Origin: Cyanobacteriota bacterium
GTDB lineage: Bacteria > Cyanobacteriota > Cyanobacteriia > CACIAM-69d
NCBI GenBank assembly: GCA_022402445.1
Contig: JAKRSF010000010.1
Coordinates: 1 to 64,000 of the forward strand
Direction: 5' to 3'
DNA length: 64,000 bases
Positions 30,494-34,832 of the stretch are shown here, piece by piece; the stretch's first letter is position 1; the number at the start of each line of letters is the position of its first letter. Made by a program: the position numbers and the translations under genes. The notes under the pieces were generated by a model. The model made no database searches and was not told the origin of the DNA. It saw only the letters and a program-made list of their open reading frames with translations.

Positions 30494-32290
30494 TCAGGCC
30501 AGATGCTCGACCCGCAGCCAGCGACCGGCCCGGTTGATCGCTCCCCAGACGGCGATGGGGCCTGCGGGGCGCTGCTGGAGTTGCTGGGCGATCGCGGGGT
30601 CGAGGGTCACCAGGCTGAAGGTTTGGCCCATGAGGTCATGGGGGCCGCTGATCTGGAAGCGGTAGGTGTCGGGGTCGGGGCGCTTCAGGGTGCCGCGCAG
30701 GGGGCGATCGTGGGGGATGGGCCGAATATTCTGGAGGGTTTGGGGCGCTATGGGAGTGTTGCCGGAGGCGGGGTAGGCGTCGGGATAGGTGGTGTAGTAG
30801 CGCTGCCACCGCTGCCAGTCGGGGCGATCGCGGGTCAGGTCATAGCAGGGGGCGATCGCGGCGGGGGCGATTGGATCGTTGAGTAAAGCGTCCTGGAGCA
30901 GTGCCACGGGCAGGTCCCGAGGTTGGCAGCGCCGCTCGATGCACAGGGCCGCCGCCATGCCCGCCGCCTGCCCCAGGTTGCAGACCGTTGGCTGGAGCCG
31001 GGTGACGCCGTTGGCCATGTGGGAGACGGAGATATTTTTTTCGCACACCAGCAGGCCGTCGATCGCCTCGGGCACCAGGCAGCCGTAGGGCAGGCCAAAG
31101 GGTGTGCCGGTCCAGCGGCCTCCCCAGCGGCGGGATTTGGGGGCGAGGGGCAGATCCCAGCCCGGATAGTGGTGGTCGTTGGCGTAGTTGCCGATGGCGA
31201 TCGCGCTGGAGCGGCCGGTGGTGCGATCGCGGGGCAGGGGGGCGGCGAACCCACCGGCCACGGGCAGCAAATCCGTCTCTAGGACCGTTTCGATCCCCCG
31301 CAAACGGCGGCTTTCGCGGTAGTAGGGATGCAGGGCAAATGCGCCCCCCGGACTGGGGGCACCGGGCACGGCGGGGAACAGATCCACCGCGAGGCCATAG
31401 CGGCGGCCCAACTGGCTTTGGATGAAGTGGGCAAAGCCTTGGCTGTGGGCGAGGGCTTCGCGATCGCAGGCGGCGCGATCGCCGGGGGACTGCACTAAAC
31501 GATTGAGATCCGTGGCGTAATCATTGCCGCGCCGGGGCCAGTTGAGCATGAAGCGATCGCCCGCGATGCGCCCATAGGTCAAAAAATCCTCGGGGCCGTA
31601 CCCGTCCCAGGCCCCCTCAAATACGCTGGGGTCGTAATTGTCCGGTGGCTCGATGATCGGCGCGATCGCCCCCGGCCCAAAATCCTGCAAATACACCACC
31701 CACGTCGGAGCCTGGACGGGGTAGCGATCGGTCAGGTCACTGGGGGCCGTCGGGGCGCTGGGTTCCTGCCAAGCTGGCTCCCAGTCCCAGCCCCAGCGGT
31801 GGGGAATTTCCCCCAGGGCCAGCACCTCCCCCAGTTCCGTCCCGTCCAGGACGATCGCCGCCTCCACCTCGATGCCCCGGCCGTCAGCTTGAACCAACTG
31901 CGCACCGATGACGCGATCGCCAGTTCGCAGCACCGCCCCACAGGCGCAATTCGGCCACCACTGCAAACGCGGTTCCGCCGCCACCCAATCGGCAAAAATC
32001 GCCGCCCCCACCGCCGGTTCATAGGCAAAAAAGCTCACCCAGCCGTGGTCGAGCCCCCCCGGTTGCCGCCGCTCCAGCGCCCGCAAAAATTCCCCCCAGA
32101 TCCCCGTCTGGAACGCCAATAGCTCATTGCCATCCGGCGCACAAACCCCCGCCGAAGTCAGCATTCCCCCCAGCCACGGCCCCTCGCTCGCCAGGATCAC
32201 CGACGCCCCCCGCCTTGCCGCCGTCAGGGCCGCCGCTGTTGCCCCCGTGCCGCCCCCCACCACCAGCACATCCGTCCGAACCCGTTCCAT
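30494..32290 (-). CDS. FAD-dependent oxidoreductase
   Basis: 598 residues. The N-terminal Rossmann motif TDVLVVGGGTGATAAALTAARRGASVILAS binds FAD, and WLGGMLTSAGV follows as in the pfam12831 FAD-oxidoreductase group. A second FAD contact region lies near CEKNISVSHMANGVTRLQPTVCNLGQAAGMAAALC (about 452-486). The substrate is unknown; the group includes enzymes of unassigned chemistry. It is followed upstream on the strand by a small ferredoxin gene (92-base gap), which could supply or take electrons; that coupling is inferred. Confidence 0.85.
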   Translation of the reverse strand: MERVRTDVLVVGGGTGATAAALTAARRGASVILASEGPWLGGMLTSAGVCAPDGNELLAFQTGIWGEFLRALERRQPGGLDHGWVSFFAYEPAVGAAIFADWVAAEPRLQWWPNCACGAVLRTGDRVIGAQLVQADGRGIEVEAAIVLDGTELGEVLALGEIPHRWGWDWEPAWQEPSAPTAPSDLTDRYPVQAPTWVVYLQDFGPGAIAPIIEPPDNYDPSVFEGAWDGYGPEDFLTYGRIAGDRFMLNWPRRGNDYATDLNRLVQSPGDRAACDREALAHSQGFAHFIQSQLGRRYGLAVDLFPAVPGAPSPGGAFALHPYYRESRRLRGIETVLETDLLPVAGGFAAPLPRDRTTGRSSAIAIGNYANDHHYPGWDLPLAPKSRRWGGRWTGTPFGLPYGCLVPEAIDGLLVCEKNISVSHMANGVTRLQPTVCNLGQAAGMAAALCIERRCQPRDLPVALLQDALLNDPIAPAAIAPCYDLTRDRPDWQRWQRYYTTYPDAYPASGNTPIAPQTLQNIRPIPHDRPLRGTLKRPDPDTYRFQISGPHDLMGQTFSLVTLDPAIAQQLQQRPAGPIAVWGAINRAGRWLRVEHLA

Positions 32291-32382: not shown

Positions 32383-32643
32383 TCACCAACTCGGATCAAA
32401 CGCCAAATCAATGGTCAAGGCCGCGCGATCGCCCGGAATCGCACTAATGCAAGCGCAAACCGTCGTCGGCTCCCCCCCTTCTGGATCCCCAAGCTCCACC
32501 TCGCAGGCATGGCACGACCCCATCAAACAGCCCGTGGGAATCTCCACCCCCGCCCGTTTGGCCACCGTCAGCATCGCCTCCCCCGCCGTCGCCATCACCG
32601 TCACGTTGTCCGGCAAAAACGTCACCCGAACCCCTGAAGCCAT
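32383..32643 (-). CDS. small [2Fe-2S] ferredoxin
   Basis: 86 residues. The cluster ligands are Cys39, Cys44 and Cys47 in GCLMGSCHACEVE, and Cys63 or Cys65 in TTVCACI. The spacing C-x4-C-x2-C-x15/17-C is shorter than in photosynthetic PetF (C-x4-C-x2-C-x29-C), so this is one of the compact cyanobacterial ferredoxin-like proteins. TAGGAT on the minus strand at 32679-32684 is a plausible -10 box 36 bases upstream. It lies between the FAD oxidoreductase and the CobQ-like gene. Confidence 0.88.
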   Translation of the reverse strand: MASGVRVTFLPDNVTVMATAGEAMLTVAKRAGVEIPTGCLMGSCHACEVELGDPEGGEPTTVCACISAIPGDRAALTIDLAFDPSW

Positions 32644-32712: not shown

Positions 32713-34179
32713 CTAAATCAACGCCACCAACCCCTCCCAATCCACATGGGTAGCCAAAGCTGTCACCAGCCCATCGATCAACGTCTCCCGATGCTCCTGA
32801 TAGTCCGGGATGCCCGTGGGCAGTGAACCCAGCCCCCGCTGGTGCCGCAGCCGATTGAGCCAGGAGCGCCGCCAGGGGCCGCTATCGAACACCCCCGGCA
32901 GGTAGGAGCCCCACACCAGATGGTTCGTGGACACCACCCCCAATTTTGGATCGCTAAAGAGGGCTTCCACCCCATCGTTATCGAGCACCTGCGTATAGCC
33001 ACAGCGCACCTCCTGGGTGGTCAGGGGCAGGCCAGCGGTGGGGTAATTGGAGGTGACCGTCCGCGATCGATTCACCTGTTCCGCCGTGATGATCGTGGCG
33101 ACGGGCAGCAGGCCAATGCCCATCAGCTCCGTCGAGTCGGAATCAATGCCCCGGAAGTGGACGACGGATTTGCCCAGCATTTGCAGCCCTTCCCCGATGC
33201 CGAGGATGGTGCCTCCTGCCGCGCCGTAGTTGGTGAGGGTTTCGGCCATGCCGCTGCTGTGGAGGGCCTGGAGGTCGGCGGTGAGGTCGCGGGTGCGGGG
33301 CAAGATGGCGGCGTCGGGATAGCCCAGGTCGCCATCGAGGTCGATGTAGCGCAGGTCAACGGTGGGCTCGACGGCGAGGGGGTCGAGGTCGCTGAAGTGG
33401 GTCATGTGGGGCAGCCGTACGGCCACGACGGTGGTTTCCCGGTCGGAGCTACGGCGGCGGCGGGCGAATAGGTCGATGGAGGCGGGGGAGGGGAAGAAGT
33501 CGCCAATCCAGGGGATGGCCCCGAGGCAGGGGAGGCCGGTGCGTTCCCGCAGCCAGTCGATGCCCGGTTGGATCTGGGGGCGGGGGCCGCGATATTTGTT
33601 GACGATGAAGGCTCCAATGCGATCGCGGTCCGCCGGTTCCAGCAGGGCAAGCAAACCGGTGACATGGCCGAGCCAGCCGCCGCGATCGGCATCGACGACG
33701 AGGACGACGCGGGCATCGAGCCGGCGGGCCAGGTCAAAGTTATTGAGGTCATACCCCCTCAAGGGGCGATCGGCGGGGCTGGCGTCGCCGTCACTGACGA
33801 GGGTGGTGTAGTGCTGCTGGGTGAGGGTGTTGAGGGCTTCGGCGATCGCGGCTTCGGCGGCGGCAAGGTAGGCGTCGCGATCGCCGTGGTCGGGATTGAG
33901 ATCAAGCCGTTGACCCGCCACGAGGGGGCGATCGCCCATGGCCCCCCGCAGGACTGGATTGAATGCCTGATGCGGTTCCGCCGTCGCCGCCCATGCCTGC
34001 AAGGCTTGGAAATAGTTAATCTCTACCCCCGTTTCCGTCATGTAGGGCAAAGTGGCCGTGCCCTCCGGCTTGAAGGGGGCCACCCGTCGCCCCCGCTGGC
34101 GCAGCAGCCGACAGAGGGCCGTAGCCAGCATGGTTTTACCGGCGGCATGGCCGGTGCCCACAAATACGATCGCGTCCAT
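32713..34179 (-). CDS. CobQ-like protein with eroded active sites
   Basis: 488 residues, full-length CobQ (cobyric acid synthase) architecture: N-terminal P-loop domain and C-terminal class-I glutamine amidotransferase-like domain. Retained: P-loop-like GTGHAAGKT (8-16), DADRGG (163-168), KYRG (195-198). Lost: usual PFKxQNM is PFKPEG; GAGSPAE is SDGDASPAD; PGSK is PRTR; catalytic Cys of GICGG is Gly329 (GIGEG); GYEIH is GYTQV; YLHG is YLPG. The reading frame is otherwise uninterrupted, so it seems to be under selection for another function. A normal CobQ is presumably encoded elsewhere. Co-directional with the ferredoxin 69 bases downstream. Confidence 0.8.
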   Translation of the reverse strand: MDAIVFVGTGHAAGKTMLATALCRLLRQRGRRVAPFKPEGTATLPYMTETGVEINYFQALQAWAATAEPHQAFNPVLRGAMGDRPLVAGQRLDLNPDHGDRDAYLAAAEAAIAEALNTLTQQHYTTLVSDGDASPADRPLRGYDLNNFDLARRLDARVVLVVDADRGGWLGHVTGLLALLEPADRDRIGAFIVNKYRGPRPQIQPGIDWLRERTGLPCLGAIPWIGDFFPSPASIDLFARRRRSSDRETTVVAVRLPHMTHFSDLDPLAVEPTVDLRYIDLDGDLGYPDAAILPRTRDLTADLQALHSSGMAETLTNYGAAGGTILGIGEGLQMLGKSVVHFRGIDSDSTELMGIGLLPVATIITAEQVNRSRTVTSNYPTAGLPLTTQEVRCGYTQVLDNDGVEALFSDPKLGVVSTNHLVWGSYLPGVFDSGPWRRSWLNRLRHQRGLGSLPTGIPDYQEHRETLIDGLVTALATHVDWEGLVALI

Positions 34180-34273: not shown

Positions 34274-34684
34274 CTAGAGGGGGAGCCGCCCCCAGCGCTG
34301 GATGAAGTTACCCCAGCGATCGCCCGGTCGTAGGCGAATCCAGGGGTTGCCCGCCCGTTCCCAAAGGGCCACCAGATCGGACCCGAGGGGCGTGAGGCGG
34401 AAACTGTCGGTGATGCCCTGGCCGTCCACCTCCCGCCGCAGAACCCCCACCTGGATCAGCCACAGGAGGGCACTGTCGGCGGCCAATTCCCCCAGGGGCC
34501 GTTGGCTAAAGCCGCGATCGCACCCCACCGCCCCCACCACCTCCGCCAGGGGCACCCCGCGATCGCGCAGGGCCAGGAAAAAGGGCAGCCGAAACGGACA
34601 GCACCGCAGGGCACGGGCCGCGCGATCGCGCGTGCGGGGACCATAAACAATAGCGGAACCGGAAGGCGTTGGAGAAACGGTCAT
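34274..34684 (-). CDS. conserved cyanobacterial protein, possibly Npun_F0494 family
   Basis: About 136 residues from ATG 34684. ARALRCCPFRLPFFLALRDRGVPLAEVVG and ALLWLIQVGVLRREVDGQGITDSFRLTPLGSDLVALW give a winged-helix-like arrangement ending in a basic tail. The resemblance to the cyanobacterial Npun_F0494 family is from memory and not checked. No function is assigned. It is the first gene of the minus-strand run and is divergent from prxQ. Confidence 0.65.
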   Translation of the reverse strand: MTVSPTPSGSAIVYGPRTRDRAARALRCCPFRLPFFLALRDRGVPLAEVVGAVGCDRGFSQRPLGELAADSALLWLIQVGVLRREVDGQGITDSFRLTPLGSDLVALWERAGNPWIRLRPGDRWGNFIQRWGRLPL

Positions 34685-34832
34685 GGGTCTGTGGGGAGCG
34701 CAACTGCACGGGGGCCATGGGGGACTGTCAAGCCAAGACCCCATCCCTCCATTGTTTCGCGAATTCCGAACAAATAGGCAGCCCCGCCGCCACACCCACC
34801 GCCAACCCCAATGCCCCCGGACCCCAAGATGC

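Follow-up and report, generated by a model that had tools for sequence, protein, structure and literature searches.

What keeps a gene open once most of the catalytic residues of its product are gone? The question is raised by a window of 64,000 nucleotides (the whole stretch of DNA analyzed here, contig JAKRSF010000010.1 of a cyanobacterial genome), whose minus strand carries, at positions 32713-34179, a gene resembling that for cobyric acid synthase, CobQ. A preliminary description, made from the letters alone, had regarded its product as a repurposed protein that had lost its amidotransferase and synthase signatures, rather than as a product of decay.

Identity of the window gene

The frame is uninterrupted over 488 codons, as had been described, and encodes a protein of 488 amino acids in which a profile search recognizes a CbiA-like ATPase domain (about residues 1-225) followed by a GATase_3 domain (about residues 250-435). 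Its scores lie above the curated cut-offs of TIGR00313 (344.4 bits; cut-off, 309.9) and NF001989 (348.3 bits; cut-off, 273), so that automatic annotation would name it cobyric acid synthase. It fails the models for CobB/CbiA cobyrinic acid a,c-diamide synthase (22.1 bits against a cut-off of 254 for NF002204, and 17.5 against 261.4 for TIGR00379).

Directly upstream, at 34274-34795 on the same strand, lies a gene for an Npun_F0494 family protein (NF045586, E=2.6e-40), and downstream, at 32383-32643 on the same strand, one for a small 2Fe-2S ferredoxin (PF00111). Of 80 retrieved cobQ loci, 73 have Npun_F0494 upstream and 47 have the ferredoxin downstream. Because this order is common to intact cyanobacterial cobQ genes, the window gene is an orthologue of them (CobQ1), and a tree places family f1 inside CobQ1. 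The open frame is the native cobQ of a Limnothrix-type genome at its ancestral site, and a foreign paralogue is excluded. Since the ferredoxin adjoins intact cobQ too, its presence is a matter of ancestral synteny and no sign of repurposing. The FAD-dependent oxidoreductase also named in the preliminary description is real (30494-32290, minus strand; PF12831, E=4e-88); it adjoins cobQ1 in the relative G001 as well and is otherwise outside the conserved block. As a lone query against the genome contigs, the window protein found no relatives; an alignment query retrieved them. No cobalamin riboswitch was detected at the gathering threshold near CobQ1 or CobQ2 (the second CobQ described below) in the window or at loci L033, L037, L044 and L053.

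With the CobQ/CbiP cobyric acid synthases, the protein shares synteny, domain order, length, HMM score, the P-loop and NKxRG; it differs from them in lacking the GATase Cys and His, PFKxQNM, LLKP...SQV and EGAGSPxE, and in having a canonical CobQ beside it in the genome. By profile and fold, the closest solved GATase domains are those of GatD, of the peptidoglycan amidotransferase MurT/GatD (6fqb and 5n9m). GatD, however, is a separate and catalytically competent subunit, whereas in the window protein the GATase domain forms one chain with a CobQ ATPase domain and has neither Cys nor His. The two entries bear the PDB name cobyric acid synthase and were rejected as CobQ structures, both being GatD; profile and fold comparison found no solved structure of CobQ itself. 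The N-terminal fold is that of the SIMIBI class of P-loop ATPases, of the dethiobiotin synthetase/CobB/ParA type (1dbs, 1dts; PF01656), although the NF002204 score, below its cut-off, gives no sequence-level membership in CobB. The structure model of the window protein has a mean pLDDT of 84.7 and a pTM of 0.60.

Residues lost and residues kept

When the residues are read from an alignment with intact cyanobacterial CobQ, the position of the GATase nucleophile is occupied by Gly329 in place of Cys (GIGEG; 33193-33195, minus strand), PFKxQNM has become PFKPEG (QNM to EGT), YLHG has become YLPG, and PGSK has become PRTR, while the P-loop GTGHAAGKT (residues 8-16; 34132-34158, minus strand) and DRGG are kept. 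The preliminary description had all of these right. It had taken GYTQV for the lost His motif, which is the canonical GRTQV at a neighboring position; the true His of GYEIHxG aligns to Arg392 (GYEIHQG to TQEVRCG; 33004-33006, minus strand). EGAGSPxE is further changed to DGDASPAD, and the LLKP...SQV region shows deletion or replacement. All 13 core residues are present in 110 of 116 other, intact-type CobQ1 proteins, one exception among the 116 being L110 of Geitlerinema sp. BBD 1991-9, which is eroded like family f22. In 16 eroded proteins, one to eight core residues are changed, and the P-loop GK[ST] is present in every eroded CobQ1 examined. As judged from these substitutions, the window CobQ1 is probably catalytically dead.

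Erosion had been thought even, sparing only the P-loop-like sequence and the DRGG region. It is in fact uneven: NKxRG is kept, and above all a cyanobacteria-specific motif near the C-terminus, GPWRRSWLNRLRHQRGLGSLPTG (residues 434-456; 32812-32880, minus strand), is fully conserved. Its consensus is GPWRRxWLNRLRxxRGLxSLPTG, with a core form of WRRxWLNxLRxxRGLxSLPTG. The 16 eroded proteins compared first show no change at any of the 13 scored motif positions, against mean differences of 12.4 in CobQ2 and 10.3 in non-cyanobacterial CobQ, and intact cyanobacterial CobQ1 already carries the motif. Two of the copies, G163 and G237 of family f37, differ outside the scored positions, with WCR for WRR; two further species of f37 have SLATG in place of SLPTG. 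Some canonical CobQ1 proteins, of families f2, f5, f17, f23 and f26, carry a partly degraded form of the motif.

In all five strongly eroded (late) lineages, 8 of 8 C-terminal CobQ1-specific sites are kept, against 14 of 50 universal sites in the ATPase domain, a split that was chosen post hoc, after inspection of the data. Over the whole protein, cyanobacteria-specific sites are not significantly better kept than universal ones (Mann-Whitney p 0.15); that broader claim was dropped, and the contrast holds in the C-terminal part only. In the model, a helix spans residues 434-447 and is followed by a low-confidence loop to residue 460. Conserved sequence in a predicted flexible stretch is what would be expected of a binding element. 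The C-terminal helix may be needed for structure alone, but CobQ2 and non-cyanobacterial CobQ manage without the motif sequence.

A second CobQ in the same genome

The preliminary description had suggested a search for a second, canonical CobQ, and one was found. This protein, CobQ2 (C9:175436-176866; 400 bits), is about 29% identical to CobQ1, and every canonical motif is intact in the alignment. CobQ2 is present in 44 of 388 cyanobacterial genomes. In five of them, from four families (G007, G008, G054, G161 and G316), it is adjoined by cbiB, the pathway gene that comes next; the genome that contains the window shows no such adjacency. These sequences suggest that CobQ2 took over the synthase job in the window's lineage. 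CobQ2 matches interrupted by one in-frame stop (TGA, TAA or TAG) were seen in G003 (C604:5246-6721), G054, G184 and G218.

The window CobQ1 might still be a cobyric acid synthase, perhaps an ammonia-dependent one with unusual residues. Its scores above both family cut-offs and its preserved P-loop and DRGG would fit, and GATase-less, ammonia-using variants are known in the CobQ superfamily. Such an enzyme is nonetheless very unlikely, since the nearly invariant QNM, LLKP...SQV and EGAGSPxE are lost as well, a complete CobQ2 is encoded in the same genome, and the copies in Picosynechococcus (below) persist without CbiB.

Selection on eroded copies

The CobQ1 orthologues of four Limnothrix-type relatives (G001, G002, G004 and G005) are open and 51-54% identical to the window protein. 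All four are eroded and share most of the losses; in G001, the Cys is still there (GLCDG) and DRGG is gone. Pairwise dN/dS (NG86) among eroded CobQ1 proteins of families f1, f3, f22 and f37 is 0.03-0.16, compared with 0.04-0.15 for CobQ2 and 0.02-0.12 for canonical CobQ1. Eroded CobQ1 is under purifying selection.

Pseudogene decay was rejected on these ratios together with the open frames; the preliminary description had named as its sign a lack of similarly substituted homologues combined with a high ratio of non-synonymous change, neither of which is the case, and its proposal to look for the divergent form in relatives turned up the four orthologues. That a slowly decaying gene, already on its way out, is still open by chance is hardly credible. 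Most of the catalytic residues are gone, copies in genus g3 have deletions of about 25 amino acids, and relatives in family f23 show that complete loss of CobQ1 is possible. Yet there are no stops, synonymous divergence is saturated between several Picosynechococcus species, and the C-terminal motif is strictly conserved, in addition to the low dN/dS. Of the earlier reading, repurposing rather than decay is supported by the shared losses, the canonical CobQ2 and the low dN/dS; its picture of a single, newly repurposed protein falls short, as the loss recurs in further families, almost always together with CobQ2.

Recurrence across cyanobacteria

Every one of the 14 CobQ1 sequences retrieved from CobQ2-bearing genomes has core changes. 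From CobQ2-free genomes, 5 of 39 have one or two each and 34 have none. Families in which CobQ2 coexists with an eroded CobQ1 are f1, f3, f4 (G008), f22 and f13 (G161, G349 and G316). An early stage is seen in G316, where QNM has changed to QNQ and the protein reads QNQVLN and SDRGG; in G133, a congener of G316 without CobQ2, CobQ1 is intact.

One clade of all eroded sequences is rejected (p-AU 2.8e-5), and without f13 it is not rejected (p 0.45). The tree needs three to five changes for erosion. An independent-pairs test provided only three well-supported pairs; each agreed with expectation, but the number falls short of significance (sign test, 0.25). At least three independent erosions of CobQ1 would be the defensible statement from these sequences.

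The association with CobQ2 raises the idea that eroded CobQ1 is a pseudoenzyme partner, which would serve the CobQ2 synthase as a regulatory or structural subunit without catalysis of its own. Paralogues commonly end up as pseudoenzyme subunits, and erosion does track the presence of CobQ2. We consider this distinctly unlikely, because Picosynechococcus keeps an eroded CobQ1 without CobQ2 or CbiB, and because CobQ2 works alone in those genera of family f23 (g25, g98 and g108) in which CobQ1 was not found.

Long branches, lineage-specific replacement residues and a P-loop GK[ST] kept throughout could indicate that each lineage has independently adapted CobQ1 to a new substrate, as some other ATP-dependent ligase or amidase. 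This too is unlikely, as the catalytic residues lost differ by lineage (f3 and f4 keep the GATase Cys, and f1 and f22 are without it), the losses left no new shared active-site signature, and what the eroded proteins have in common is a motif that intact CobQ1 also possesses.

Several other loci depart from the usual pattern. In L069 and L070 (G087 and G097, f23), with CobQ1 and no CobQ2, VNIDLGG replaces VDIDRGG and the C-terminal motif is degraded. The cobQ of G012 (C2:32412-33876) is apparently split by a frameshift into two overlapping pieces, which could be an assembly error, and G155 has two high-scoring CobQ1-type genes (C31:13157-14602 and C52:42098-43552; 647 and 593 bits). Neither CobQ nor CbiB was found in G050 and G083 (f14) or in G093 and G103 (f33); the small 2Fe-2S ferredoxin is present in all four despite this.

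Eroded CobQ1 in Picosynechococcus

Family f37 comprises Picosynechococcus, represented among others by sp. PCC 7117 (G163) and PCC 7003 (G237), each recognized by identical plasmids. Each of six species has one CobQ, an eroded CobQ1 below the family cut-off. In G163 and G237, CobQ2 was not found, and CbiB, the pathway gene checked besides CobQ, is absent. An eroded CobQ1 therefore survives where CbiB is missing and no CobQ reaches the family cut-off. The eroded copies have no stop codons; even where synonymous divergence between species is saturated, CobQ1 is still there, with the P-loop GK[ST] kept. Between species, the C-terminal motif is 78-100% identical, as against 39-86% for the GATase part, and Npun_F0494 adjoins the gene at four of six loci.

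A comparable case is on record. Synechococcus sp. PCC 11901, a cobalamin auxotroph closely related to PCC 7002, has in its chromosome an unexplained CobQ (QCS50783.1), for which horizontal transfer or loss of the remaining pathway was proposed (PMC7205611). The likeness is one of annotation, not of compared sequence, and neither residue erosion nor a second function is reported in that paper.

A proposed second function of CobQ1

The best overall explanation, which we hold to be reasonably probable, is a CobQ1 with two jobs, one of which was taken over by CobQ2 and the other of which preserves the eroded protein. CobQ1 would ancestrally have been a cobyric acid synthase with a second, cobalamin-independent role, and this role would need a folded protein, the cyanobacteria-specific C-terminal helix with its flexible loop and possibly the P-loop. 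Once the synthase job passes to CobQ2, or a lineage gives up the pathway, catalytic and corrinoid-amidation residues would be free to drift, and purifying selection for the second role would preserve frame, fold and C-terminal motif. This role would probably be an interaction, of a binding or regulatory kind, that is gated by nucleotide. That the persisting motif is already in intact CobQ1, together with the recurrence of loss, favors an old second function that was kept over a new one that was gained, and we infer that such an ancestral function exists. The lineages without CobQ1 (the f23 genera that have CobQ2, and those members of f14 and f33 in which no CobQ was found) indicate that the second role would be dispensable or replaceable.

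By virtue of its physical linkage to cobQ1, Npun_F0494 is the best candidate for a partner and the first to consider. Its family, which is cyanobacterial and undescribed, matches no Pfam entry and has an invariant LRREVDGQG core. Its model is winged-helix-like, with weak matches to regulators of the MarR/ArsR type (E 1.5e-3 or worse); a regulatory role through it would be a guess from that model. In the literature library searched, no paper on a second CobQ function or on Npun_F0494 was found. The ferredoxin is a weaker candidate. Among canonical genomes, those without the ferredoxin have the more degraded motifs (p 1.5e-5), an association that rests on the only three families lacking it (f2, f5 and f23) and is confounded by ancestry; the ferredoxin was not adopted as an obligate partner.

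These results bear on how cobalamin synthesis is read from genomes. With both proteins named cobyric acid synthase in databases, B12 reconstructions credit the window genome with two CobQs where the sequence supports one, and a non-producer of B12 can seem to own a piece of the pathway through an eroded CobQ1. More broadly, it seems fairly likely that cyanobacterial CobQ is bifunctional, and that an undescribed, B12-independent function carried on the C-terminal motif has repeatedly outlived the enzyme activity. The search for this hidden function is narrowed to a stretch of 23 residues. PCC 7002, a member of Picosynechococcus, is a genetically tractable B12-auxotroph, and this genus offers a background in which it might be possible to examine the second function separately from cobalamin synthesis. 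The repeated survival of a catalytically stripped CobQ1 is genetic evidence, supplied by nature, that a core protein of cyanobacteria has a hidden function.
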